From a virus, in the IMG/VR virus record IMGVR_UViG_3300005336_000038, positions 1 to 32,733 of that record: 32,733 nt of DNA. One strand, given 5' to 3'. The position numbers and the translations under genes are program-made. Each line of letters opens with the position of its first letter. Position 1 is the stretch's first letter. The notes beneath the pieces are model-generated. The model was not told the origin of the DNA. It saw only the letters and a program-made list of their open reading frames with translations, and did no database searches. This document shows positions 2,436 to 32,733 of this stretch, one piece after another.

Positions 2436-4109
2436 TTATTCGGGATCGGGGTCGGTTTCTTCGACGCGCACCGTCCACCCCGCGCGTTGCTCATCCAGCG
2501 AGGGGGTGTCGAAGTTGGCGCGCGCACGAAGGCGACGTTCCCAAGGTTCGCGACCCATTGAACGGTCGGGGTGCATCGTGCCCTCAACCACGTCCAGCGA
2601 CCAGGTATCAAATAGTGGGGGGCTTACGTAGCCACCGTCGCCGGGGTATACCTGGTCTACAACGGCACTGTCGGCGTCGTAGGTGAGCCAGGTACCGTTG
2701 TCGAACCACCAGTCCCCGGTGCGTCCAAACTCGTCAACCAGTGGGGTGGCGTCAACACTCTCGGTAATGATCGCCCGGGCGGTGACGTAACGCCCCCCGG
2801 CGGTGGCGTCGATATCCCATACCATGAAGCTGTTGGCCGAGGGGTCAGCGAGCTGGGTATCATAAACGTTTCCACGACCGTAAATTGCAAACCCCAACGC
2901 CTCCTCCCCCGAGCGGGCGTTGGATTTGAACTCACGAAACGGTACAACAGGGCCGGGCGGGGGTGGGTGGGGAAACACGTTGGTACTGTCGTTGGCACGC
3001 CGGGGCATCGTGATTACCCCGTCGTGGACCCACGTACTATGATCATCCCCGGTGAGTAGTACGAGTTTACGCGTATGACTATACAACCCACTCTCACCAC
3101 ACGCACGAAACACATCCCATAGGTCCTGTTGGTGAAAAATTGACGCCCCGTCACGCGCAGCAGCCCCCGCTTGGCCACCAGTTGTGGATGTGACGTTGAC
3201 CACCGGGCACCTAAAGGTAGACCCGAACGCCACCATGACCAACGCACGGTCGGCATTGGTAACGAGCCAGTTGCGCATCCACGCGCGTAGATCGTCCTGC
3301 CACAACGTACGGGGCTCAGTGCCTTGCCAGATGGGCAATTCGTCGGACGCGCCTTGCTTCTTTTCACTACGTTCGTCAATGACAAGGAAAGGTACGCCTG
3401 CTACCTCGAACCCGAAGGTGTAGTTATCGTAGGGTAGACCGTTGATCGTGCGTCCAAGGAACGTACAAGGTCCACGGTCTTGCCAGTGGATGGCTTGGTG
3501 ATCGACGGCGACCTGACGCGTTGTACACGCCGTTACCCAGTCGTAGGTGCTGTTGTTCCCCGCCCAGTCCCAATCGTGGAACATGTACACGAAAGGTAGG
3601 CGGGCGGTGGTTTGGAAGAACCGGTGGAAGGGGTCGTCATATTGCGCAACGAACGCGTCGGCCATGGCGGTAGCAGATGCGTGTGGACCACCAGCGGCCC
3701 CCACCAGGTCCCCGGTGTGTAGAATGAACGCCGGTATCCCAAGGGGTTCAACGTGAGTCTCAAAGTGGACGCGGATGTTGTCGAATAGCGTGTCGGTGAC
3801 GTTATGCGAGTCACTCACGTGGTACATGAAGAAACGCCCACTAGCAGGCATGGTCCACGTGGTATTGGTTGCGACCTGGACGTCATTTTGTAGAACCCGG
3901 TAGTCGTATTTGGTGTTGGCGTCCAGGCCGGTGACGAACAACGCGGCGCTGTTCCACGTACCAGTTGCCTGGGTGGCTTTTAGTGTCCAGGCTGTAGTAC
4001 CGGTTTTGCGCGTTTCTACTTTGATAGTAGATGCGCCGTCGGCCTTGACCCACACGCTGAACCCTGTGGAACTTGGCCGACCCAACCGAGGACCGAAGGT
4101 CAAGGCCAC
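2436..4109 (-). CDS. PhoD-like metallophosphoesterase with N-terminal Fn3-type domain
   Basis: 557 aa from a GTG at 4109 with AGGAG 7 nt upstream. Residues 1-88 look like the fibronectin-III-like N-terminal domain of PhoD and purple acid phosphatases (LDANTKYDYRV). The calcineurin-like metal-binding core follows: D100-x-H102 (HVSDSH), G133-D134 (HTGDLVG), HDWDWAGNN at 178-186 in the place of GNHD, and GDDH at 354-357. No signal peptide is visible, so action inside the virion or after lysis is likely. Its place among tail genes suggests a virion-associated enzyme acting on cell-surface phosphodiesters, such as teichoic-type polymers. The substrate is inference; the fold assignment is strong. 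Confidence 0.8.
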   Translation of the reverse strand: MALTFGPRLGRPSSTGFSVWVKADGASTIKVETRKTGTTAWTLKATQATGTWNSAALFVTGLDANTKYDYRVLQNDVQVATNTTWTMPASGRFFMYHVSDSHNVTDTLFDNIRVHFETHVEPLGIPAFILHTGDLVGAAGGPHASATAMADAFVAQYDDPFHRFFQTTARLPFVYMFHDWDWAGNNSTYDWVTACTTRQVAVDHQAIHWQDRGPCTFLGRTINGLPYDNYTFGFEVAGVPFLVIDERSEKKQGASDELPIWQGTEPRTLWQDDLRAWMRNWLVTNADRALVMVAFGSTFRCPVVNVTSTTGGQAGAAARDGASIFHQQDLWDVFRACGESGLYSHTRKLVLLTGDDHSTWVHDGVITMPRRANDSTNVFPHPPPPGPVVPFREFKSNARSGEEALGFAIYGRGNVYDTQLADPSANSFMVWDIDATAGGRYVTARAIITESVDATPLVDEFGRTGDWWFDNGTWLTYDADSAVVDQVYPGDGGYVSPPLFDTWSLDVVEGTMHPDRSMGREPWERRLRARANFDTPSLDEQRAGWTVRVEETDPDPE

Positions 4110-6225: not shown

Positions 6226-6822
6226 TTACGCGATTGCCGTACCAAACACGGTGGCGTTGTACAGGAACATGAAGATGACGCGGGGGTTGAGCATCCCCAC
6301 ACCAGCCTCACGCCCGTACTGCCAGTCCTGACCAGTGGTGTCGAACTGGGGCGTGACGTATTCAAGTGGGTAAACCACGTCCACACCCGTACTGGACTGT
6401 TCGATGGCGAAGTAGGTACCGCCACCAGCGTCCGTACGAATGAGCCCGAGCTTGACGCGGATGTTATCCACGTAGACACCGGTCTCGTCAGTAGCCGTAC
6501 CAGTTACGACGTTACCCGCGAACCGGGCATCGGCTACCGCCAGGGCGACGTTGATCAGGTCGTCGTTGACCTGACCGTTGCGATCAATCGTGGCAGCCGA
6601 GGTGAAGGACTTGCACATCGCCACGCCGAAGATCGTGCCCGCGGCAGCTACAGGGGTAGCGGCAACCGAGACGTCGCGCGTAGCGGCGTTGATAGCAAGA
6701 ATATCACCCGGGAGAAACGCGTCCGACGGGTCGCAGGGGATCGTTGCCATTGCAACGCTAGACGTCCCTCGCGCACCGGGCGCGGCAGCAATCGGCTGAA
6801 CGGTTCCAGCAGTGATAGCCAT
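6226..6822 (-). CDS. Putative head protein (decoration or capsid-associated)
   Basis: 198 aa, ATG at 6822 with AAAGGA 7 nt upstream. It directly follows the major capsid gene. The N-terminal 100 residues are Ala/Val/Thr-rich beta sequence with a phrase typical of capsid decoration proteins (FLPGDILAINAATRDV; then GTIFGVAMCKSF). The C-terminal part (GGGTYFAIEQSSTGVDV) is also beta. No enzyme motif. Position and composition favour a capsid-stabilising or fibre role. Confidence 0.65.
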   Translation of the reverse strand: MAITAGTVQPIAAAPGARGTSSVAMATIPCDPSDAFLPGDILAINAATRDVSVAATPVAAAGTIFGVAMCKSFTSAATIDRNGQVNDDLINVALAVADARFAGNVVTGTATDETGVYVDNIRVKLGLIRTDAGGGTYFAIEQSSTGVDVVYPLEYVTPQFDTTGQDWQYGREAGVGMLNPRVIFMFLYNATVFGTAIA

Positions 6823-6836
6823 TTAGGTATCCTTTA

Positions 6837-6870
6837 AGGCCCCCATAGCGCACAAGCCGTACAGGGGCCT
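6837..6870 (-). terminator. Hairpin between capsid gene and following head gene
   Basis: AGGCCCC and GGGGCCT form a 7-bp stem with a 20-nt loop in the 57-nt gap after the major capsid gene. No T-tract follows. Possibly limits read-through or stabilises the capsid mRNA 3' end. Confidence 0.3.
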
Positions 6871-6879
6871 CGTTAGTGC

Positions 6880-7824
6880 TTAGGCCCCCGGCGAACCGTA
6901 GGTCCCGAGCCAGTGGACGGCTGCCATCGAGAATCGCTGCCAGCCGAGCATGACCGCCGTACGCGTCCAACGGTCGTCAAACGAATCCATCATGGGCCGC
7001 TTGCGCCACAGGAACACAAGGTTGTGCTCCGGTGCAAGGAGGAACCATGCGTCGGTGTCCTCAAGGTAGGGGTCAACCACTACCTCAACAACGCCACGAG
7101 TGACGTTCTCAACACGGTTGGCGGTGTCCGGGCGGTTCTGCGAGTTGACAACCTCGCGGGCGTCGAACTCAACCTCCGGGGGGACCACCAGCCTGTTGGG
7201 GAACGACACGCCGGGGATTCGCAGGTTACGATCCGTACGATAGCGCTTGAACTGCGCCAGCGCCGTGCGGAATGACGTGACCGTGAAATCCACCGCGGCC
7301 GAGGGTCGATTGGACTGCGTACCCGACTCACCACCCGCAACCGGGCCGTGGGCGGTGTTGTACACGCCAATCGTCGAAACGTAGTCGGGCAGCGGGCGCA
7401 GGAAGTCAGGCACCGCCGCAGCGAGGAAAGCCTCGGCGTTGAAGAACCGGTGGGCCTGGATCTCCACAACCTCGGCAAGCGAATCAGCAAGACCGTTACC
7501 AGCCGCCGTGAGTGCAGACCCACTGGACTTGTAAAGATCGTCGTCGAACGCTTCCTCGGTAAACTGGCATCCAATGCCATAAACCGTGTGGTTGATCCGC
7601 TTCTTCAACCCCTCAAGCGGGTCGAAAACGGTAATCGGCTGACCCTCGGGCTTCTCGATGGCGACGGGCAGACCAGCAGCGGCCAGATAGTCTTCGTAAT
7701 TGCGCGAAGACGTCTCGACCTTGAGCAGTCGCGAGTAGTACGACTCACGCCCACCCAGCCGGGTACCCACGATCTCTCGAAGGCCGGGAGCCAGGTGCTC
7801 AGCAAACTGACCAGTGCTGGCCAT
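6880..7824 (-). CDS. Major capsid protein, HK97 fold
   Basis: 314 aa, ATG at 7824 with the strong site AAGGAGGA, as expected for the most abundant protein. An N-terminal helical arm (FAEHLAPGLREIVGTRL) leads into an extended loop region and the P/A domains. The C-terminal half has the phrases VVNSQNRPDTANRVENV, VVVDPYLEDTDAWFLL and VFLWRKRP, a familiar signature of HK97-type capsid proteins of the Mu/F-like group. Length is normal for a capsid protein without a large delta domain, which fits the separate scaffold gene just upstream. Strong assignment. Confidence 0.9.
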   Translation of the reverse strand: MASTGQFAEHLAPGLREIVGTRLGGRESYYSRLLKVETSSRNYEDYLAAAGLPVAIEKPEGQPITVFDPLEGLKKRINHTVYGIGCQFTEEAFDDDLYKSSGSALTAAGNGLADSLAEVVEIQAHRFFNAEAFLAAAVPDFLRPLPDYVSTIGVYNTAHGPVAGGESGTQSNRPSAAVDFTVTSFRTALAQFKRYRTDRNLRIPGVSFPNRLVVPPEVEFDAREVVNSQNRPDTANRVENVTRGVVEVVVDPYLEDTDAWFLLAPEHNLVFLWRKRPMMDSFDDRWTRTAVMLGWQRFSMAAVHWLGTYGSPGA

Positions 7825-11776: not shown

Positions 11777-13582
11777 TTAGAGCGGCACACCGGTGCGCGT
11801 CGATGCGGCGATGCGCCGTGCGCGTTTACGTGCGCGGGCGCGCGCAAGCCGGTCGGTGTTGGTGGTGGAGGCGATGTTGAGGAAAATCTCCTCGGCTTGA
11901 ACCTCGGTATCAAGACAGTCCATCGTACCGGTGGGGAAGTGGCGCACCTCCCACTTGGGCAGTTGTAGCCCCTCGCGGAGGTACAACTTACCTTGGCCCA
12001 ACCGGTTACCAAAGCGACGACGAATACGATCTTCCTTGGCAATGCCCATGGCGGGTACGATCATCTCGGGTTCAGGGATGCGGTCCTTGCGGGTTTGGGC
12101 GTAGTGCGCCAATGCCCGTCCAAAGTACGCCTGTAGCGCCACCTTCTCAATAAGGATGCGTGGTGTGCGCCCGGTCATTTGCTTGGTCTTTTTGTACAGC
12201 TCGTACGCCGCTACAATCGCTTCGTCGGGGCCGAAGTGGTCGGCCACGCAGTCGAGCCAAAACACCCGGTCGGTGGGGGCGTCAAACTCGAACCACGAGA
12301 TAGCGGTGCGGGCGTTTTTGACGTCCTTACTCGATGCGGGGTCGATGCTAATAATGGAGTTGCTCAGGTGGGCTAGTGCGATGGCCTCTTGGCGGTCAGG
12401 CAGTAGTGTGCCGTCGGGGCTATAATGAGGTACAACAATGGCCCATTGGCGTTTGGTTGTACTGTCGCCCAACGTGACAGGTACTACAGCGGTGTTGCAA
12501 TACCTAAACTTGGACGCGTCAAGCTCAGCTTCGGCGGTGGGGTCGTTACGGAACTGCGCCGCAAACAACTCGGGGCCGACGTCACGCTCGACACGTTCCA
12601 GGGCCTCGACGGTGGGGTAGCGTCCCACCCACAACGGTATGTCACTATCAGCACAAGCGCGCTCAGTTGAATCGTCCCAACGACCACAGTTACCAGGCCC
12701 GTGGACAACGCAACGGTAACATGAGCGATGCCAAATATCCCAATCGGGCATCTCGTTGTGGATCATCGAGTTTACGTCATCGAGCGCCCATCGGTTGCCC
12801 ACGACAATGATGAACCCACCGTTGGGGTTGCGGTAGTCGCGGTTCTCCAAAAGGAACCCCACGGTTTTGGCCCACGCTTTGCGACGCTCCAACTCGGCGG
12901 CGGACTTGTATGATGTCTCACCAACAAGGTCGTCGATGATCAAGCCTTCGGCGCGGCCGCCTTGGACCTTCGAGTCTAGCCCCACCGCCGTTAGAAATGG
13001 ATCGGCGAGGGAACGATTAACGCGACTATTGAGGGTATATCCCTCGCGCGACCACTCGCCATATGGCAGGCGGTTGTAGTTGTCCCACAACAGCTCAGGG
13101 AAGGCCCAGCGCATGACGATGTTGGTTTCCCAGTCGGTCTTGGTAGAGCCTACGAAGTCGGCGGCGCGCGCCTTTGAATCGCTCCCAATAACATAACGAC
13201 CATCAGCGCCTCGCATGTGAGGATGCTTCTCAAGAAACTGCAATGCGCGTCCAACTTCACTAGGATGATCGTACCTTTCGTCAGGACGTTGTATAGCACA
13301 CCACCCTGGAATAGACCGGGTGGACCGGGTAGACTTAATGCATCCACGGGACTCCTCGAACAACCCACGCTTGGTCACCACGACAACGTTTTGCAACCAG
13401 TCGCACGATGCCTTGAACGTCTCAACATCCATGAGGTTTTCAGGCTCGTTCCAACACACCGCTACCTTGGTCCACACATACAACGACCGCCTAAACGCCG
13501 CCCGCACCAACGCACGTACGTCATTATCGTCGCTTTCCATGGCCTGGCGAATGGCGGCGGGGGTTAAAAAGTCTAGGCTCAT
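11777..13582 (-). CDS. Terminase large subunit (ATPase and nuclease)
   Basis: 601 aa, ATG at 13582 within an ATGA overlap. ATPase: P-loop position at R79-G-C-I-K83-S-T, Walker B LIIDD at 214-218, and motif III VVGNRW near 260-265. The segment FAAQFRNDPTAE at 340-351 is typical of TerL. Nuclease (RNase H fold): ISIDPASS with D414 and later ILIEKVALQ. A Cys cluster (CYRC at 288-291, C299) may bind zinc. The P-loop lacks the usual Gly before Lys (Ile82 instead), which is unusual. It pumps DNA through the portal and cuts concatemers. Confidence 0.88.
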   Translation of the reverse strand: MSLDFLTPAAIRQAMESDDNDVRALVRAAFRRSLYVWTKVAVCWNEPENLMDVETFKASCDWLQNVVVVTKRGLFEESRGCIKSTRSTRSIPGWCAIQRPDERYDHPSEVGRALQFLEKHPHMRGADGRYVIGSDSKARAADFVGSTKTDWETNIVMRWAFPELLWDNYNRLPYGEWSREGYTLNSRVNRSLADPFLTAVGLDSKVQGGRAEGLIIDDLVGETSYKSAAELERRKAWAKTVGFLLENRDYRNPNGGFIIVVGNRWALDDVNSMIHNEMPDWDIWHRSCYRCVVHGPGNCGRWDDSTERACADSDIPLWVGRYPTVEALERVERDVGPELFAAQFRNDPTAEAELDASKFRYCNTAVVPVTLGDSTTKRQWAIVVPHYSPDGTLLPDRQEAIALAHLSNSIISIDPASSKDVKNARTAISWFEFDAPTDRVFWLDCVADHFGPDEAIVAAYELYKKTKQMTGRTPRILIEKVALQAYFGRALAHYAQTRKDRIPEPEMIVPAMGIAKEDRIRRRFGNRLGQGKLYLREGLQLPKWEVRHFPTGTMDCLDTEVQAEEIFLNIASTTNTDRLARARARKRARRIAASTRTGVPL

Positions 13583-18835: not shown

Positions 18836-19597
18836 TTACATCGTGTCCCAGGTATCAATCTCTACAATGCAAAGCGTACGATAGCGCGCAGCGATCCCGC
18901 ACACGATCGACTGGTACCAAAGCCACGTGGAAGGCATACTACACATATACGGCACAGCCGAACACGCGCAGTCGTTACCGCTCGTAGGCTCCCCAGGAAC
19001 ATGAATGCATCCACCTGTGATTTCGATGCACTTTCCGTCGCAGACAGTAGCGCTGCTACACGAGCCATCCCCCGAACCACATTGGTGTTCCGTTGGGTCC
19101 GGGTCGTAAGGCTCCGGGTCGCCGTCGCCACATTGGCCATCGTTACCAACACATGGGCCTTGATTGGTTGACGCCATCACAAGGTTTTCCCACGAAGACG
19201 ACTGCTCCCACACCCACGGGTCGTTGGGGCCGTTCTCTTGCGTGTAGTATCGTACCCGTGTCATGATCGCCTTGTCCACAAGCTCGTCGGGGTCGGTGAT
19301 ATCCACGGTGAACTGCGCATACGTCGCGTCTTCACCCTCCAACTCACCCACAATGGTCTTGTCGTAGGTGATTGTTACCCCATCCCCATCAAGCTCAACC
19401 CCTTCGCCAAGGTCATGCTTGTTGCCCTTCGCGAACAGTTCCCCCGCCCAATGGTCGCCGTCGTGATCCCCTGGACACGTCGCAATCTCACATGGCGTGT
19501 GAATACACGGACACGCCGCGAAGACGTTGTTGGGCACCATGACCAGCACCGTCAACGCGATAATCAGCCCTAACACAAAGCGCTTACCGTATCGCAT
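18836..19597 (-). CDS. Secreted Cys-rich protein
   Basis: 253 aa, ATG at 19597 with GGGAG 6 nt upstream. A signal peptide is clear: basic MRYGKR, hydrophobic VLGLIIALTVLVMV, likely cleavage after NNVFA. The mature part has about 20 Cys, including ACPCIHTPC, CGDGDPEPYDPDP and CSSATVCDGKC, implying disulfides or metal binding. Asp/Gly-rich segments (DGDHDGDHW-like) could bind calcium. It has its own promoter and operator upstream. Phage genes encoding large exported proteins may change the cell envelope; function unknown. Confidence 0.7.
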   Translation of the reverse strand: MRYGKRFVLGLIIALTVLVMVPNNVFAACPCIHTPCEIATCPGDHDGDHWAGELFAKGNKHDLGEGVELDGDGVTITYDKTIVGELEGEDATYAQFTVDITDPDELVDKAIMTRVRYYTQENGPNDPWVWEQSSSWENLVMASTNQGPCVGNDGQCGDGDPEPYDPDPTEHQCGSGDGSCSSATVCDGKCIEITGGCIHVPGEPTSGNDCACSAVPYMCSMPSTWLWYQSIVCGIAARYRTLCIVEIDTWDTM

Positions 19598-19609
19598 GTC
19601 TACTCCCTT

Positions 19610-19628
19610 GCACGTCATGTTGACGTGC
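19610..19628 (-). promoter_or_regulatory. Operator-like palindrome at the transcription start
   Basis: GCACGTCA-TGT-TGACGTGC, perfect 8-bp arms with a 3-nt centre, located between the -10 box and the ribosome site of the secreted protein gene. It starts about where transcription should begin, so a bound repressor would block it; as RNA it would form a leader hairpin. Confidence 0.55.
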
Positions 19629-19635
19629 TATTTCC

Positions 19636-19665
19636 AGTATAGCATACTAAGTGTGACAAGGACAA
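19636..19665 (-). promoter_or_regulatory. Candidate promoter, TTGTCC-18-TATACT
   Basis: Minus strand: TTGTCC (19665-19660), 18-nt spacer, TATACT (19641-19636). It overlaps the 3' end of the 139-aa gene and would drive the 253-aa secreted protein gene, with the palindrome directly downstream. Confidence 0.55.
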
Positions 19666-20066
19666 GTGTTGCGCGTACCGTGGTCTTGGGTTTCCTCGAC
19701 ACAAAACCAGGAGCCTCCAATGTCCTGGTAGTCACGCTCGGCTACGATGTCAAAATAGAGAATCGTTGCCGTGGGTTCGACGTAAAATGGATATTCGCAC
19801 GCACCACCAGGACAACTAGCCACGGGTGCGCGTTCGCTACACAACCATGGTTGGGCCAGGTTGTCAGTAACGTAAGCGATGTAATAGGTGGCGTCTCCAC
19901 CGAGTTCCGCCTCAGGCGTGAGTGTCCACGTGAACACGACGGGAACATCGGGGTACGTGGTGTTGGGATCGGGGGAGACGTGTAGATCGACCACCTCGGC
20001 GTTGGTATGCACATTGCACATCAACATCAACACGACAAGACCCACGATGCGTACGAAACGGTTCAT
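19647..20066 (-). CDS. Secreted beta-rich protein
   Basis: 139 aa, ATG at 20066 with AAGGA 6 nt upstream and ATGA overlap with the small membrane protein. Signal peptide MNRFVRIVGLVVLMLMC... ending in TNA. The mature region begins with an Ig-like strand pattern (VDLHVSPDPNTTYPDV then VVFTWTLTPEAEL) and holds several Cys (CSERAPVASCPGGACEYP). Could be an extracytoplasmic binding or exclusion factor. Function unknown. Confidence 0.7.
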   Translation of the reverse strand: MNRFVRIVGLVVLMLMCNVHTNAEVVDLHVSPDPNTTYPDVPVVFTWTLTPEAELGGDATYYIAYVTDNLAQPWLCSERAPVASCPGGACEYPFYVEPTATILYFDIVAERDYQDIGGSWFCVEETQDHGTRNTCPCHT

Positions 20067-20233
20067 AGCGCGTCCTTCCATGCTAGCACGTTGACTAGCG
20101 TTACGATGGTATTTGTAAGTACCAACGTTGTTACCACGTCAAAAATCACCGTCACCACCTGCACTATAGTGTATACCATTGCAATGCCTAGTGCCACGGC
20201 GAGCGCAATGTTTCGTTGTGTTGACACCCGCAT
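20063..20233 (-). CDS. Small membrane protein (56 aa)
   Basis: ATG at 20233 with GGAG about 10 nt upstream; the stop overlaps the next start (ATGA). After a short basic N-terminus almost the whole protein is hydrophobic (NIALAVALGIAMVYTIVQ; then more Val/Ile/Thr/Leu), giving one long or two short transmembrane segments. It links the Ubl cassette to the two secreted-protein genes in the same direction. Another frame here is open but lacks these features. Confidence 0.6.
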   Translation of the reverse strand: MRVSTQRNIALAVALGIAMVYTIVQVVTVIFDVVTTLVLTNTIVTLVNVLAWKDAL

Positions 20234-20289: not shown

Positions 20290-21120
20290 CTACCTCTTTC
20301 GAGCGTTACTTGACGGGGCAGTTACCACGCTTTTGGCAAGCTGTTGCGCCGCGATTAGCGCATCGGCCTCGGCTTTACGAGCCGCGTTGATGATTGCCAT
20401 TTCGTCGTTCTCGGGTTCGTCGTTGCGCCAGTAGGACTTGACTTCCCCGCTGGCGAAGTTGCCAATCAAGAGTTTGGGGAAGGTTGCACCGTTGAGCCAC
20501 CGACGAATGACGGGTGCAACGAAACCCGCCACGCCCATCCCGGTAGCACCCACCGATGACGCGCCACACGTACCGGCATCGTAGGTTTGTTTGGTGTCTT
20601 GGAGTATCTTGAGGTATTCGTCGCGGGCGCTATCGTCGCCCGACGCGCGAACGGCCCAAATCGTGAAATCCTCGAACGCCATGCGTGGGTCGATGACAAG
20701 TACGTTGGTGGGTGTGCGATTGCGCGATACTGCCAACTGTATCGCGCTAAAAGCGGCGCGTCGAGACTCGATATTGTCAGTACCGAGTATGAAGGTTGAC
20801 AGGTTGGTAACATTGAAAGCGTCGGATGAGGAGGCAGCGAAGTTGTGTGCCCGGACGTCTACGTATGTACTATAGCGTTGGAGGATGTCGCGTAGCGCCA
20901 CTACTTTAGGCTCTCCAATTTGCCCGGGTTCGTACTGTTGCGTGGCGATGTTAGCAGCCTCTACCACATCGCCATCCCATAGGGTGAAATTCCGCACCCC
21001 CGCACGGGTGAGGGCGATTGCACACGCGCTGCCAAGGTTGCCACACCCCACGAGGGTGACTAACAACTCGGACAACGTTGTGGGGACGAGCGCGCGTTGA
21101 CGTGAAAGGTCGATAGTCAT
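20290..21120 (-). CDS. E1-like ThiF-family activating enzyme of the Ubl cassette
   Basis: 276 aa, ATG at 21120 with GAGGAGG 7 nt upstream, ATGA overlap with the acidic gene. Rossmann core: LVGCGNLGS with G25-x-G27-x-x-G30, acidic D49/D51 (LWDGDVVEAANI), Q-rich ATQQYEPGQIGEPK with K72, then ILGTDNIESR with D115 and R120. DPRMAFE (144-150) is a phrase typical of prokaryotic E1s. Candidate catalytic Cys185 lies in AGTCGASSVGATGMGVAGF. No zinc CxxC pair is seen, unlike ThiF/MoeB. It should adenylate the Ubl C-terminus and pass it to the E2-like protein via a thioester. Confidence 0.85.
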   Translation of the reverse strand: MTIDLSRQRALVPTTLSELLVTLVGCGNLGSACAIALTRAGVRNFTLWDGDVVEAANIATQQYEPGQIGEPKVVALRDILQRYSTYVDVRAHNFAASSSDAFNVTNLSTFILGTDNIESRRAAFSAIQLAVSRNRTPTNVLVIDPRMAFEDFTIWAVRASGDDSARDEYLKILQDTKQTYDAGTCGASSVGATGMGVAGFVAPVIRRWLNGATFPKLLIGNFASGEVKSYWRNDEPENDEMAIINAARKAEADALIAAQQLAKSVVTAPSSNARKR

Positions 21121-21422
21121 ACTCGATCCTCCTCGCGAGGCACCTCGGAGACAAGCGCGTCAACTAGCGCGTCCTCGGATTCGTCATTCGCAAATGGGTC
21201 ATCGTCGTCGTCGTCCACGTCTTCGAGAAAACAGTCAATTTCCTCGTTGTCGTCGTCGTCGAAGTTGAAAACCTCCATCACGTTTTCCATGATGGAATCG
21301 TAGAGCGCGCTTTCTTCGATGGGCACACTTGAACCGCCCGCTTGCTCTTTCGCGTCCTCGTAAACGGCGGCGATGCCTTCCCCAATAGCGCGTGAGAGAA
21401 CCGCGTACGTGTTGACTCGCAT
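21117..21422 (-). CDS. Very acidic small protein inside the Ubl cassette
   Basis: 101 aa; ATG at 21422 chosen because AGGTGG lies 4 nt upstream (an ATG one codon before is too close). It overlaps both neighbours (ATGATG with the JAB stop; ATGA with the E1 start), so it is translationally coupled to the cassette. Residues 52-80 are almost all Asp and Glu (FDDDDNEEIDCFLEDV, then a run of six Asp). It has one Cys. Could be an inhibitor, substrate, acidic adaptor or DNA mimic. No family recognised. Confidence 0.75.
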   Translation of the reverse strand: MRVNTYAVLSRAIGEGIAAVYEDAKEQAGGSSVPIEESALYDSIMENVMEVFNFDDDDNEEIDCFLEDVDDDDDDPFANDESEDALVDALVSEVPREEDRV

Positions 21423-22378
21423 CATTCCACCTGCTTTTCGACCGTCGCGGGTGCGTCGGTTTTGATGCTAACCTTCAACCCATTACCGATCCACGAATCG
21501 AACTGCTTCATGGAAAGGCCGGTGTATTGGGCGAGGATGCTCTTGGCGGCGGTGGTAGGCGACACACGGAAGTTCTGCTTGCCCACGACCACCTCGATGG
21601 GGCCTGTTTGCGTGAAGGTGATGTCGTACTCGTCGGGGTCTTCGCGAAGGGCGTTTTTGAGTGCCTTGAGGCGGCGTTTTTCGCCCTCCAACGTCACCCC
21701 ACTGGGGAGTTTTGTAGGTTCGGCGCGCTCTTGCGACGACGCGGGAAGGAGGATTGCGCCATTACGGTCGCGTGGCGTGCCCCAACTGCTATAGAATCCA
21801 CTCCCGTACGTTGACTTGCTCTCGCGCTCCTTCACGTTGGCGTCGAATTCTTTGTCCAACGTGGCTTTACGCTCCTCGGCGAGCCCATCGTGAATCCACG
21901 CGTCCGAGGGCAGGGTGACGTGGGTGCCGTTGTCCTCAATGCGCTCTTGCTTGTCGAGAAACAACAGCGTGTCAACGCGGTGGGCGAAATCACCCTTGTC
22001 GTTGACGCAAATCGACACCAACAGCCCCTCGTTGACGAAATTCTCGATCCACCTGTCGTCAACCGCCGAGAATCCCACGCTAAAGGTGGGGTGGGAGTGC
22101 CAGAAACACCACGTCAAGCGCGGCATCGCACAGTTGACCGCTTCGCTGGTGAAGCGCTTTTCCAACCACCGGTGTACGGGTTCGGTTTGGAAATCGACTT
22201 CGCCGTGGCTCACGGTTTGGGGTAGGAGTGTGGCGGTGTGGACGAGTAGGATGTCCAACGACTGGGACACCAGCGCCACCCCTCCAACTTCGCGCGGGGA
22301 TGATTTCTTGCACCAGTAGTGCATTGCCTTGAATGTTTCACGTTCGATCAAGACGCGCAAGCGCTTTGCTAGAGACAT
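21422..22378 (-). CDS. JAB/MPN (JAMM) metalloprotease of the Ubl cassette
   Basis: 318 aa, ATG at 22378 with AAGGAGGA upstream. Complete JAMM motif: catalytic E30 (PREVGGVALV) and HSHPTFSVGFSAVD, giving H94-x-H96, seven residues, then S104-x-x-D107. All zinc ligands and the serine are present, so it should be active. The JAB domain covers about residues 5-150; the rest (185-318) is a separate region with helices and beta strands (EVVVGKQNFRV). Expected jobs are trimming the Ubl C-terminus (GGTR to GG) and removing Ubl from targets. Resembles Prok-JAB/PRTRC protein A and BilC. Confidence 0.9.
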   Translation of the reverse strand: MSLAKRLRVLIERETFKAMHYWCKKSSPREVGGVALVSQSLDILLVHTATLLPQTVSHGEVDFQTEPVHRWLEKRFTSEAVNCAMPRLTWCFWHSHPTFSVGFSAVDDRWIENFVNEGLLVSICVNDKGDFAHRVDTLLFLDKQERIEDNGTHVTLPSDAWIHDGLAEERKATLDKEFDANVKERESKSTYGSGFYSSWGTPRDRNGAILLPASSQERAEPTKLPSGVTLEGEKRRLKALKNALREDPDEYDITFTQTGPIEVVVGKQNFRVSPTTAAKSILAQYTGLSMKQFDSWIGNGLKVSIKTDAPATVEKQVE

Positions 22379-22414
22379 TGCTTTCCTCCTTAACCACGTG
22401 GGTTAGGAAATGGG

Positions 22415-24004
22415 TTATTCGTCAGGGCCGTCGCTTCCGTCACCGTTGTATTCGTCGTATTCGCCGTCGTCGTCGAGTTCGTCGTCATCCCCCTCCTCGT
22501 TATCGGGGTCTACCACATCATCAATTTGGGCATTGCCTATCACCGCAGGTTCAACAAGGGGTACATCCGTGTTGAGCATTGTTGCCGCGCTTGTTATGTG
22601 AATGGGTGGTTCGTCGCTTTTGTTCTCCTCAACGAGCGTACCAAAGAAGTGCATGGGCAAGTACCCGGTTTGCCATTGCAACAGGTACGCCTGTAGTGTA
22701 CGAACGAACGTCGCGGGACCGGCATACTGTGACACACGCAACGCCGTGCCGTTGAGAATACGGTCTTGAACGGTGTCGCCTAGGCAAAATGTACCATCGG
22801 CGCTTACGTGAGGGTGCGGGTAGCCCCTGCGTTCGGTGTTGTCGTGTAGGCGTACCGCGCGGGCGGATTGTATGTCCGATGTTGGTGGCCAGGGCATGAT
22901 TGCCCACCCGGGTGGGAACTCGTACACACCAGCTTTGTAAGGTGCGTGAAAACCGAGTGTGGCGCGAAAACCCGGGAAGTGAAGGTGCAATTCGTTGCGC
23001 GAGAAGTACGAACGGTCGGTGATTATGCCATTTGCAATAGCCGCGGCCAACGCCTCGTCGAAGTACATGGATTCGGGGACATATCCACTTGAGATTTCGT
23101 GAATTGACGTGGCGGTGTTGGTCTCGGCGCGTAGAACGTCCATGCGTTCGTTGAGCACGCGTACTTGGGTGTGTACCTGGGACAAGTAGGCACAAAATTC
23201 CATGTTCACCGCTGTGCGGCGTAGGGTGTCACCAAAGGGGGGTATAGTGCGTTCGTTGGCACTTGTGGTAAAGTATACGCGCGAATTACTTGGCACGGGT
23301 CCAGCTTTGCGCGCATCGTTGACCACCGCTTCAAGGAAGTTGACGAACCACGCTAGGCGTGTGGTGATTCCACGGCCTCCTACGCGAATCCAGCGGTGCC
23401 ACGCATGGAGGGGCACAAGACACGCGAATGCCCAGTCACGACGGTGGAACAATGGCATGTCGTAATAGGTACCGTAGTTACCGTGACGTTGGTAGCTTTG
23501 TGCAAAGTCGTTGTTCACGTGGGTACGTGCTCCAAACAGCGACCGCCCCACGAATTCGCGGAAATGCGTGTTTTGGTAATTTGCGATAGCAATTTCGGCA
23601 AGCCCGAGGTATCTCCCGTTGGGAAGTAGTTCAATACCTTGCATACTGGCGAAGCGGTAGGCGAAACGGGTTTTTGCGGGGATAACGGCGTTAACCCCCG
23701 GGCATGCTGTTTCGTCAACGGGGTTGCGAATGAAGTGAACATACCCCCCTTCGGTTTTGATCCACCAGCGTTCACCCGCGTCGGGGGCTATAAAGTCGGT
23801 ATTGTGTGCAAGTCCACGCGGGACAGCGGAGCGTTGCGTTGCGGTAGGTATGAGCCAATGGAGTGGGTGGTAGTTCAAATCTCCTACACGAAACCCGCCC
23901 AAGTCAGCCAACGAGGCGTGTACAAGTTCCTCAAACGCCTCCGCGCTGTTGGCCGAGGCGCGCATGAGCCGGTATTTGCTCATGAAGTTCAGCGCTTTTG
24001 CCAT
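22415..24004 (-). CDS. E2-like Ubl-conjugating protein with N-terminal extension and acidic tail
   Basis: 529 aa from the ATG at 24004, which has AGGAGG 7 nt upstream. Residues 1-320 form a large region of unknown fold, rich in aromatics (GERWWIKTEGGYVHFI). The E2-like domain is about 330-460: HFPGFRATLGFHAPY, PPGWAIMPWPP and the signature YPHPHVSADGTFCLG, with His397/His399 and catalytic-type Cys407, as in prokaryotic E2 (Prok-E2_D type, PRTRC protein B, BilB). Residues 493-529 are Asp/Glu-rich. It is much longer than a lone E2, so it may be an E2 fused to a target-binding module. Confidence 0.85.
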   Translation of the reverse strand: MAKALNFMSKYRLMRASANSAEAFEELVHASLADLGGFRVGDLNYHPLHWLIPTATQRSAVPRGLAHNTDFIAPDAGERWWIKTEGGYVHFIRNPVDETACPGVNAVIPAKTRFAYRFASMQGIELLPNGRYLGLAEIAIANYQNTHFREFVGRSLFGARTHVNNDFAQSYQRHGNYGTYYDMPLFHRRDWAFACLVPLHAWHRWIRVGGRGITTRLAWFVNFLEAVVNDARKAGPVPSNSRVYFTTSANERTIPPFGDTLRRTAVNMEFCAYLSQVHTQVRVLNERMDVLRAETNTATSIHEISSGYVPESMYFDEALAAAIANGIITDRSYFSRNELHLHFPGFRATLGFHAPYKAGVYEFPPGWAIMPWPPTSDIQSARAVRLHDNTERRGYPHPHVSADGTFCLGDTVQDRILNGTALRVSQYAGPATFVRTLQAYLLQWQTGYLPMHFFGTLVEENKSDEPPIHITSAATMLNTDVPLVEPAVIGNAQIDDVVDPDNEEGDDDELDDDGEYDEYNGDGSDGPDE

Positions 24005-24022
24005 AGGACAGCCTCCTAGGTT

Positions 24023-24095
24023 AAAAAAATGGGGGGCTCTACCGTAAATGACCGCCGTAAATGGCAAAATAGGCGGCGAAGTGGTAGAACCCCCC
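24023..24095 (-). terminator. Terminator/attenuator between Ubl and E2 genes
   Basis: Minus strand: GGGGGGTTCTACC (24095-24083) pairs with GGTAGAGCCCCCC (24043-24031), 13 bp with one mismatch. An inner 5-bp stem (24052-24056 with 24072-24076) lies in the loop. Directly after the stem comes A then seven T (24029-24023). It lies 19 nt before the E2 start. It should stop most transcripts after the Ubl gene and let a fraction read through. Confidence 0.8.
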
Positions 24096-24138
24096 GTTTA
24101 GGTAGTGGCTACCCGATCCTCCTGGTTGGTTCCCCCGA

Positions 24139-24369
24139 TTACCGCGTACCGCCCTTCGCGGCACGCGCCACTTCCAGCTTGTCGTTGTCCTTGACTACCG
24201 TCTTACCGGCATCCGACGCGCCGAGGGCGGTTCCATTGAGCAGGAACACGATACCCTCGTTGGGGAGGTTGTACCGCTGACGGATCTCGTCGATCGTCAT
24301 GGACGCCTGTCCAGGGGGAAGCTGGAACGAATCGCCCTGAAACTTGAAACCGGACACGTGAATCGCCAT
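24139..24369 (-). CDS. Ubiquitin-like modifier (beta-grasp) with C-terminal GG-TR
   Basis: 76 aa. ATG at 24369 is chosen because AAGGAG lies 7 nt upstream; a TTG six bases earlier is too close. Beta-grasp layout: strands near residues 2-17 (IHVSGFKFQGDSFQL), a helix (MTIDEIRQRYNLP, 24-36), strand (GIVFLLNGT), and a last strand (KDNDKLEVARA). The tail is AAKGGTR: G73-G74 followed by Thr-Arg, so processing by the JAB is needed to expose the diglycine. Length and tail agree with Prok_Ub/PRTRC protein C and BilA-type modifiers. First gene of the cassette. Confidence 0.85.
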   Translation of the reverse strand: MAIHVSGFKFQGDSFQLPPGQASMTIDEIRQRYNLPNEGIVFLLNGTALGASDAGKTVVKDNDKLEVARAAKGGTR

Positions 24370-24611
24370 TGCCAAGCTCCTTTCCCACGTACGTGTGAGT
24401 GCCCCTTACGGCGTCATTGCCACCGGGGCGGTTTTGGCCCGGCCAGTGTCGCACATCGGCCGCCGCGCCGCAAGCCGGGCGGGCCTACGCACGGGCGCGA
24501 GGGGCAAAATCTGTAAAGGGCATTTTATCGAGGGCCTGCCACCTTAAGCACCGGTTAGAACCACCGCAAAAAGCGTGCCACGCCCTTTGTTTTGTTGGGG
24601 TTGTAGCGACG

Positions 24612-24653
24612 GGCAGTTTTTTATCGGTTTTTTTATTGGGGTCGGGAGTACGT
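24612..24653. repeat. Left arm of a ~42-bp inverted repeat
   Basis: Arm carries T6, TCGG, T7, then a GGGG and GGGAGTACGT end. Its reverse complement matches 24803-24843 at roughly 36 of 42 positions with two small indels. The arms flank a 149-bp AT-rich core. Confidence 0.75.
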
Positions 24654-24802
24654 GTGAGGGTTCATATAAGAATTATAAGAGGGGTATGGGGATTGAAAAT
24701 ACCCCTAATATTAGCTAGTATATAAGAAATTAAAGAATAAATACCTATATACTATAAGAAAAAGCATATCCTATGAATAGGACATCGACCATCGACTTTC
24801 TT
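24654..24802. other. AT-rich core with four TATAAGA repeats: putative origin and/or divergent promoter region
   Basis: The only strongly AT-rich stretch of the window. TATAAGA(A/G) occurs in the same orientation at 24665, 24674, 24721 and 24753 (iteron-like). There is also an 8-bp hairpin (AGGGGTAT/ATACCCCT, 24680-24687 with 24699-24706), a TCCTAT-GA-ATAGGA palindrome (24769-24782) and a tandem CATCGAC repeat (24783-24796). No gene is seen. It separates the two divergent modules. Confidence 0.6.
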
Positions 24803-24843
24803 ACGTACTCCCAGTCCCCATAAAAAAAGCGATAAAAAATGGC
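24803..24843. repeat. Right arm of the ~42-bp inverted repeat
   Basis: ACGTACTCCC, CCCC, then A7 and A6 runs separated by GCGAT; partner of the left arm at 24612-24653. Read outward, both arms show the same order of elements, so they could also be paired divergent regulatory sites. Confidence 0.75.
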
Positions 24844-25001
24844 GTACATTCGACAACCTGTGGTAGGTCAATGGGTTACCCTTGGTTTTCGAGTGGCTCT
24901 AAGTGGCGTTAAAAGTGGTAGGGGGGTGATTAAAAGCCCGTTTACTGTGTGCCCCCTTGCGCGGGCACGTCACACGTCTGTTTAATGGTAATTAACAGGC
25001 A

Positions 25002-25017
25002 GGAGGCGTTGGCCGGT
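25002..25017 (+). repeat. 16-bp direct repeat, copy 1
   Basis: GGAGGCGTTGGCCGGT, repeated exactly 200 bp downstream at 25202-25217. Both are in the non-coding leader region of the early operon and flank the candidate promoter. Confidence 0.55.
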
Positions 25018-25044
25018 TGCATAGGTTCTATAAGACTGGGAAAT

Positions 25045-25074
25045 TTGACAGCGCAGGCACTTTTGTGCTAGTTT
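25045..25074 (+). promoter_or_regulatory. Candidate early promoter, TTGACA-18-TAGTTT
   Basis: Perfect -35 TTGACA (25045-25050), 18-nt spacer, TAGTTT (25069-25074). It would transcribe a GC-rich leader of about 150 nt into the zinc-finger/RHH gene. I see no credible gene in 24386-25233 apart from this control region. Confidence 0.55.
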
Positions 25075-25201
25075 ATCGGGGCGGTAGGTCGGGCCGGGGT
25101 GGCCAGGGCGGGGCATCAAGAGGACCGCGCGCGCGTACATGTGCGGGCGGGCAGGGGTTGGGCGGTCGAAAGGGCGTTGTGGTGGTCGTAAAAGGCGCCA
25201 T

Positions 25202-25217
25202 GGAGGCGTTGGCCGGT
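25202..25217 (+). repeat. 16-bp direct repeat, copy 2
   Basis: Second GGAGGCGTTGGCCGGT, 17 nt before the first early gene and close to its ribosome site (AGGAGG). May affect translation or be a binding site. Confidence 0.5.
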
Positions 25218-25233
25218 CGTAGGAGGCACAACG

Positions 25234-32463: not shown

Positions 32464-32733
32464 GTGAAATACGTAGGCGGCGCGGGTCCTTACGGTCCGT
32501 TGTGGATTATTGGGGAGGGGCCAGGGAAGACTGAGGAGGCCCAGGGTGAGCCTTTTGTGGGTAAAACGGGCGGGGACCTGCGCCGCATCGTAACGCGGGC
32601 GGGGATGGCGTGGCAGGATGTTAGGCGGGATAATGCAATACCCTACCGCGTAACAATCCCCAAGGATGGGGCGTCCCGCGGGACGCCCCATCCTTGGGGA
32701 TTGTTACGCGGTAGGGTATTGCATTATCCCGCC
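32464..32733 (+). CDS. Uracil-DNA glycosylase, family 4-like (partial)
   Basis: GTG at 32464 with GAGGAG upstream; the frame stays open to the window end. Family-4 UDG motif 1 GEGPGKTEEAQGEPFVG and then KTGGDLRRIVTRAG. The following NAIPYRVTIP replaces the usual Asn-rich motif segment. The last 55 bases are the reverse complement of the preceding 55, so the true protein sequence ends near 32678. It removes uracil from DNA. Confidence 0.75.
   Translation, partial: MKYVGGAGPYGPLWIIGEGPGKTEEAQGEPFVGKTGGDLRRIVTRAGMAWQDVRRDNAIPYRVTIPKDGASRGTPHPWGLLRGRVLHYPA
32624..32733. repeat. Perfect 110-bp palindrome at the window end
   Basis: 32679-32733 is the exact reverse complement of 32624-32678 (55-bp arms, no loop, centre GCGTCCCG|CGGGACGC), reaching the last base. 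Because it breaks the UDG gene and the arm is 55 bp, a typical assembler k-mer size, a contig-end fold-back artefact is the simplest explanation. Confidence 0.9.

Follow-up and report, generated by a model that had tools for sequence, protein, structure and literature searches.

Research on the ubiquitin-like conjugation systems of prokaryotes has so far centred on their part in the defence of bacteria against phages. In the Bil system, a ubiquitin-like modifier (Ubl) of two domains is accompanied by an E2 with a CEHH motif and by a two-domain E1, formed by an inactive and an active adenylation domain (PMC11354881). Type 6d of Iyer et al. (2006), a bacterial group, combines a stand-alone Ubl carrying a C-terminal Gly with E2, JAB and E1, each encoded by its own gene of the same operon; its further features are a JAB-N domain, an additional gene for a helical protein and a conserved E2 His downstream of the Cys, as given in the portion of that article available here (PMC1779556). 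The same portion mentions phages only for the lambda-type tail module TAPI/TAPK, without E1 or E2 (PMC1779556). In the present work, phages were found to own a full set. The sequence analyzed, an IMG/VR virus record of 32,733 bases (hereafter the window), contains on its minus strand, at positions 20290-24369, a cassette of five open reading frames (ORFs) that encode, in order of transcription, a Ubl, an E2-like conjugating enzyme, a JAMM metalloprotease, a small acidic protein and a ThiF/E1-like activating enzyme. All five had been placed there by a preliminary description of the sequence, and the residues that it named (E2 H397-P-H399 and C407; JAMM E30/H94/H96/S104/D107; E1 C185) were correct. 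The cassette probably provides the phage with its own system for the reversible conjugation of a ubiquitin-like protein, a prediction based on the genes present, on their order and homologies and on catalytic residues that are invariant across a large phage family.

As in type 6d, the window cassette has a stand-alone Ubl and separately encoded enzymes, but its E2 presents HPH upstream of the Cys, like the HPN of eukaryotic enzymes, a difference that refers to the available portion of the article. It is also set apart from the lambda-type module outlined there (Ubl and JAB with NlpC) by the presence of E1 and E2, and no NlpC match was obtained in the cassette. Four biochemical roles (Ubl, E2, JAMM and E1) are held in common with BilABCD. 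However, the window Ubl has 76 amino acids (aa) and one beta-grasp instead of two domains, its E2 has HPH before the Cys and no CEHH downstream of C407, its E1 of 276 aa has one ThiF domain, the cassette is phage-borne, and none of the Bil models of PADLOC matched the window proteins. The PRTRC cassettes of plasmids and integrative elements are similar in content (Ubl, E2, JAB and ThiF) and order. A ParB-like gene upstream of the Ubl in a marine group of related phage loci (L098, L120, L062, L064, L092) recalls the plasmid PRTRC cassettes, whereas no ParB-like ORF was seen among the translations of the window cassette. The PRTRC_ThiF model reached 23.4 bits with the window E1, far below its cut-off of 144.75, and the other NCBIfam PRTRC models gave no match. 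Thus, the two systems named as relatives in the preliminary description, PRTRC and Bil, do not include this cassette by the tests run, nor are its single-domain Ubl and E1 of the Bil type.

The operons of Bub and of the cyclic oligonucleotide-based anti-phage signalling system (CBASS), with Cap2/Cap3, share the Ubl-type conjugation chemistry, and the window E1 is locally similar to the E1-E2 models of PADLOC. Cap2, however, is an E1-E2 fusion acting on CD-NTases, whereas E1 and E2 are separate genes in the window, and no CD-NTase was recognised among its translations. The archaeal SAMP2/UbaA/JAMM1 system also has a single-domain E1, and both the Ubl and the JAMM profiles described below match chains of PDB entry 5LDA, a JAMM1-SAMP2 entry; it is a cellular system, whereas that of the window is viral, and we know of no E2 in SAMPylation. 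No phage set of E1, E2, JAMM and Ubl was reported in the literature searched, and ThiF and ubiquitin go unmentioned in the main text of the crAss genome papers examined. Key papers of the Corbett laboratory and the surveys of the Aravind laboratory after 2006 lay outside the scope of that search, and priority is therefore uncertain.

The Ubl gene (24139..24369, minus strand, with a refined ATG start at 24369) ends in ...AAKGG-TR, the GGTR codons lying at 24142-24153. The ThiS models matched the single sequence below their cut-offs (Pfam, 0.0012; NCBIfam, 7.6e-6). A profile of 29 family Ubls matched in the PDB SAMP2 (9.7e-10) and then ThiS, MoaD and TtuB. The AlphaFold2 (AF2) model is a beta-grasp of bbabb order with a mean predicted local distance difference test (pLDDT) score of 72, and with this model Foldseek retrieved ThiS/MoaD/ubiquitin/SUMO folds with a probability of about 1. 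Hence, the beta-grasp Ubl proposed beforehand, for which the single-sequence matches are weak, is supported by the family profile and by the fold. Across the family, zero to four residues follow the Gly. A candidate Ubl with a Gly tail was located upstream in 61/97 loci tested, by a crude rule that admitted a few false ORFs and overlooked others. In one phage contig (L097), a gene of 210 aa situated about 435 nucleotides (nt) upstream of the E2 contains three tandem Ubl repeats, each ending in KQIKGN, which by its sequence is a predicted polyubiquitin-like precursor. Both this tandem and the tails of zero to four residues imply that a processing protease would be needed.

The E2-like gene (22415..24004, minus strand; refined ATG start at 24004) encodes 529 aa with a variable N-terminus, a long helix, a UBC-like core and an acidic C-terminal tail. 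Its active-site motif, HPHVSADGTFCLG (22778..22816, minus strand; H397..C407..G409, pattern HPHVxxxGxxC), has the spacing of UBE2L3, HPNIDEKGQVCL, in the alignment of the profile with the PDB, and C407 is followed by LGDTVQDRILNG. A family profile of 67 E2 cores and 158 positions was searched against 177,635 PDB sequences, and only ubiquitin-conjugating enzymes appeared among the 60 matches listed, the best at 9.5e-5; in their alignments, HPH of the family falls on HPN, and its Cys on the catalytic one. A profile that included the coiled coil matched coiled-coil proteins, whereas with the core alone all the matches listed were E2s. UQ_con, the top Pfam family among the 49 family members searched, was matched by four of them (best, 0.0005). 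When the window protein was compared with a hidden Markov model (HMM) of phage E2s built without it, it scored 34.4 bits (E 6.6e-10), and 500 shuffled sequences gave 3.3 bits at most. In two of the related loci (L071, 3921-6055; L079, 1-1249) a tandem pair of E2-like genes was observed.

The JAMM/MPN+ gene (21422..22378, minus strand) encodes 318 aa and contains the motif HSHPTFSVGFSAVDD at 22058-22099 (minus strand). Prok-JAB gave 21.7 bits with this protein (1.9e-4), under its cut-off of 25 bits, and the JAB model of PADLOC gave 1.6e-8. A profile of seven JAMMs matched CSN5 (8.8e-7), RPN11 and archaeal JAMM1 in the PDB. The E1-like gene (20290..21120, minus strand) encodes a single ThiF-fold adenylation domain, matched by Pfam ThiF above its cut-off (4e-20); MoeB (1.7e-8) and UBA5 (2e-7) are the nearest solved structures. 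Its putative catalytic residue, Cys185, is encoded at 20566-20568 (minus strand). In relatives, E30/H94/H96/S104/D107 of the JAMM are invariant (102/102), C185 of the E1 is conserved in 100/101, and D51/N57/K72/D115/R120 are invariant or nearly so. These counts were taken from a MAFFT alignment, the HMM alignment misplacing the JAMM Glu, and the conserved residues of JAMM and E1 played no part in the selection of the loci. No zinc CxxC pairs occur in the window E1, and paired CxxC was seen in 0/101 E1s. Taken singly, the window proteins gave a mixed outcome in the profile searches: ThiF passes the Pfam cut-off, Prok-JAB and ThiS stay below theirs, and the window E2 is unmatched.

In the Flavobacterium phage Fpv1 (L153, 5995-8287), a group I intron is inserted in the JAMM gene, at the HSH active-site motif. 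The intron was detected at 6312-6557 by Rfam RF00028, with an E value of 2.6e-9 and a score that does not reach the gathering threshold, and a LAGLIDADG-like ORF lies on the opposite strand of this region at 6511-7260. Phage introns usually occupy conserved and needed genes, and the position of this one was for that reason counted in favor of a working conjugation system.

Within the window cassette the genes are tightly packed. Shine-Dalgarno-like sequences and ATG codons were found at the Ubl, E2 and JAMM genes, and the acidic ORF (21117..21425, minus strand, 102 aa) overlaps both its neighbours, JAMM and E1, by 4 nt. The acidic protein was considered as a conserved part of the cassette and rejected: the ORF announced in the preliminary description is real, but it is lineage-specific and has no counterpart in the relatives examined. 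Its slot between JAMM and E1 is occupied in L098, L018, L037, L042, L064, L092 and other relatives by a protein (..EATRIKDVAMFGSEEAAHAMLKEF..) that is conserved and about 145 aa long. No E3 was recognised near the cassette. An intergenic region (24370..25233) separates the leftward arm, to which the cassette and the late genes belong, from the rightward replication arm, and includes a sigma70-like site (24672-24699, minus strand) that points toward the cassette, as judged by consensus match only.

The distribution of the gene set was studied by scanning viral contigs for the E2 motif spacing of the window, which yielded at least 119 stretches, most of them in frame in long ORFs. After removal of near-duplicates, about 90 E2 cores remained at 70% identity and 57 at 60%, a few bacterial loci included. 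The order E2-JAMM-E1 was observed in 83 of the 88 loci with all three enzymes, usually with the Ubl upstream, and a terminase was present on 18/32 sampled contigs of relatives. A stricter pattern, PCLG, was found at least 69 times in the viral set. When 84,980 genomes of bacteria and archaea (257 gigabases) were scanned in full, it came up only 20 times, with about 17 credible hits; these belong to Patescibacteria, Myxococcales, a planctomycete and other metagenome-assembled genomes (MAGs). Judged by these sequence counts the family appears to be mostly viral, which is claimed as an enrichment and not as a rate because the collections compared are of unequal size and the number for viruses is a lower bound. 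In the E1 tree, cellular and viral sequences interleave, and the placement of the window E1 is unsure due to its very long branch. The complete Ubl/E2/JAMM/E1 set of ubiquitin type noted at the outset in a tailed phage is thus upheld, but not as an isolated case, since it belongs to a large and mostly viral family. Single-protein scans of the viral contigs with the window E1 or the window E2 retrieved no relatives, and neither did tblastn of the window E2 in phages and plasmids. Three further E2s of the family, used as tblastn queries against deposited phages, likewise gave no matches. In several cellular loci (L133, L135, L136, L141 and L152, from Uhrbacteria and other MAGs) the E1 directly follows the E2, and no JAMM was detected by the family HMM. 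In all five gut-group loci (5/5), a reverse-transcriptase-like gene (YTRYADD) stands right after the E1 (L002, 6954-8291; L010, 8987-10219; L011, 9765-10952; L012, 9251-10432; L013, 8943-10058); it is absent from the window.

Among deposited phages, tblastn with E1 gave matches in crAss-like phages, in a phage scaffold from human faeces and in a huge phage. In crAss001, gp76 is annotated as ThiF, gp77 as a metalloprotease domain, and gp78 and gp79 as hypothetical, gp78 having an H-x-H...C motif. Alignment to the E2 family with hhalign gave 83% for the crAss E2s and 92% for the faecal group, and tblastn with the crAss-type E2 matched 74 deposited records, of which Flavobacterium phages account for 29. 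A diverged version of the cassette is thus present in cultured crAss-like phages and in Flavobacterium phages. The position of crAss gp79 and its conserved K-x-S-G suggest a Ubl-like candidate; this was not confirmed by hhalign (3%) or by any PDB match. The gene set is largely without a label in the phages that carry it, the cultured crAss-like phages of the gut included. These phage sets are widespread, their catalytic residues are invariant, and they have cultured carriers, namely crAss001 (gp76-gp79), DAC15/DAC17 of Bacteroides thetaiotaomicron and the Fpv phages. Since such carriers grow on tractable hosts, what a virus tags, and why, can be tested directly. With this family, the known evolutionary history of E2 enzymes also gains a large viral branch.

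In the mechanism proposed, the JAMM would first remove the two residues behind the Gly-Gly of the Ubl. The ThiF-type E1, with ATP, would then adenylate the exposed Gly and load the Ubl on Cys185, from which it would pass to Cys407 of the E2; the E2 would join it to amino groups of target proteins, and the JAMM could take it off again. As regards the targets, the genes that flank the cassette in relatives encode primases, a DnaB-type helicase, HNH, endonuclease VII, a YqaJ recombinase and Gp157, and those next to the crAss001 cassette encode a primase, a uracil-DNA glycosylase and an exonuclease. Because the cassette sits among such genes, modification of phage or host replication, recombination or transcription proteins during infection, under phage control, is favored over counter-defence, virion tagging and sulfur transfer, although this role is put forward tentatively. 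A broader and likewise tentative proposal is that tailed phages as a class, including the crAss-like phages that dominate in the human gut, run their own Ubl signalling during infection, mainly for the control of the replication or recombination machinery and not for immunity, with an E2 whose active site is nearer to that of eukaryotic ubiquitin E2s than to that of the E2s known from bacterial defence.

Host defences based on Ubls exist (PMC10097602, PMC11153139), and a phage Ubl system could jam or reverse them (CBASS Cap2/Cap3, Bil), competing for the modifiers or deconjugating them; decoys are common in phages, and JAMM alone could deconjugate. Such counter-defence seems rather unlikely, given that a complete activating set exceeds the needs of a decoy, that the catalytic residues of E1 and E2 are retained, and that so broad a distribution would require a broadly present target. 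The cassette might also tag parts of rival virions, as in superinfection exclusion, or of the virion of the phage itself. Bil, which blocks phages by tagging their virion proteins, offers a precedent, and the window cassette is transcribed in the same direction as the terminase, portal and capsid genes. Tagging of virions is nevertheless improbable: no Bil model matches, and in relatives, crAss001 among them, the cassette is flanked mostly by genes for primases, helicases, endonucleases and recombinases and not by those of the virion, a mild argument against it as a general role.

A sulfur-carrier system, in which ThiF would activate a ThiS-like carrier and JAMM would trim it to feed a sulfur reaction of phage or host, as in CysO/Mec+ or TtuB, would agree with the nearest single-sequence matches, ThiS and ThiF. 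JAMM trimming of a sulfur carrier is known from CysO/Mec+. Operons of ThiS, JAB and ThiF for sulfur chemistry are likewise described in the available portion of the survey cited above (PMC1779556). We consider this quite improbable: in the whole family an E2-like protein with a catalytic-type Cys separates the Ubl from the JAMM, the window ORFs that were read include no recognisable gene for a rhodanese, a thiazole synthase or a sulfur acceptor, and the paired CxxC motifs are missing from all 101 E1s.

Several observations weigh against the prediction of a conjugation system and of its role in replication, most of them concerning the E2. The window E2 alone found no match in Pfam, NCBIfam or PHROG; it aligns to the family HMM only around the active-site motif, and it was not found by this HMM once the motif was masked. 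Its full-length AF2 model is of low quality (pLDDT 56) and retrieved no E2 in Foldseek, although residues 260-430 mostly score 60-89 and their predicted elements follow the order of the UBC fold, with a helix, four strands and the motif loop before further helices. Furthermore, the family E2s were gathered by a motif pattern, so that conservation of the motif is itself circular; the non-circular evidence is their association with E1, JAMM and Ubl together with the PDB matches. Given an HMM fit limited to the motif, a poor model and a Foldseek search without E2s, the assignment of the window protein as an E2 is rated as likely, its tie to the family being mainly the active-site motif, the position and the predicted secondary structure. 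The profile or structural match expected for the E2 was in this way obtained for the family and not for the window protein on its own. ThiF enzymes of thiamine synthesis likewise carry a reactive Cys, so C185 alone is no proof of conjugation. Moreover, the window cassette runs with the late genes, while crAss phages have it in the replication arm. That the E2-like protein is not a UBC-fold enzyme at all, the true unit being Ubl, JAMM and ThiF and their partner an unrelated protein, would account for the missing database match and the poor model, but is highly improbable in view of the PDB matches of the family profile, an HMM fit 31 bits above the best shuffle and the UBC order of the predicted elements.

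The phage context claimed in the preliminary description was confirmed by matches of window proteins to the terminase large subunit (phrog_38, 2.3e-41), a major head protein (6e-8), an endolysin (1e-27) and a Sak4-like annealing protein (4e-12); the portal match was weak (0.003). The terminase gene (11777..13582, minus strand) is downstream of the cassette on the same strand. The leftward arm is made up of terminase, portal, capsid and tail genes and the rightward arm of DNA-metabolism genes, with the cassette between them, and DNA metabolism is the nearest functional module on the opposite strand. For the relative that matches this terminase (L008), the available sequence stops short of the cassette region.

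Additionally, some other window genes were noted. Among the tail-region genes, a protein of 557 aa (2436-4109), without a PHROG match, resembles by eye a PhoD-type phosphodiesterase with a fibronectin-like front. Directly downstream of the E1, at 18836-20233, three proteins are encoded: one is small and hydrophobic, and the other two, of which one is Cys-rich, begin like signal peptides. At the right edge of the window (32464-32733), an ORF resembles a uracil-DNA glycosylase by eye, and annotated uracil-DNA glycosylases are located near the cassette in crAss-like phages (crAss001 gp74) and in Fpv1 (3148-3897).

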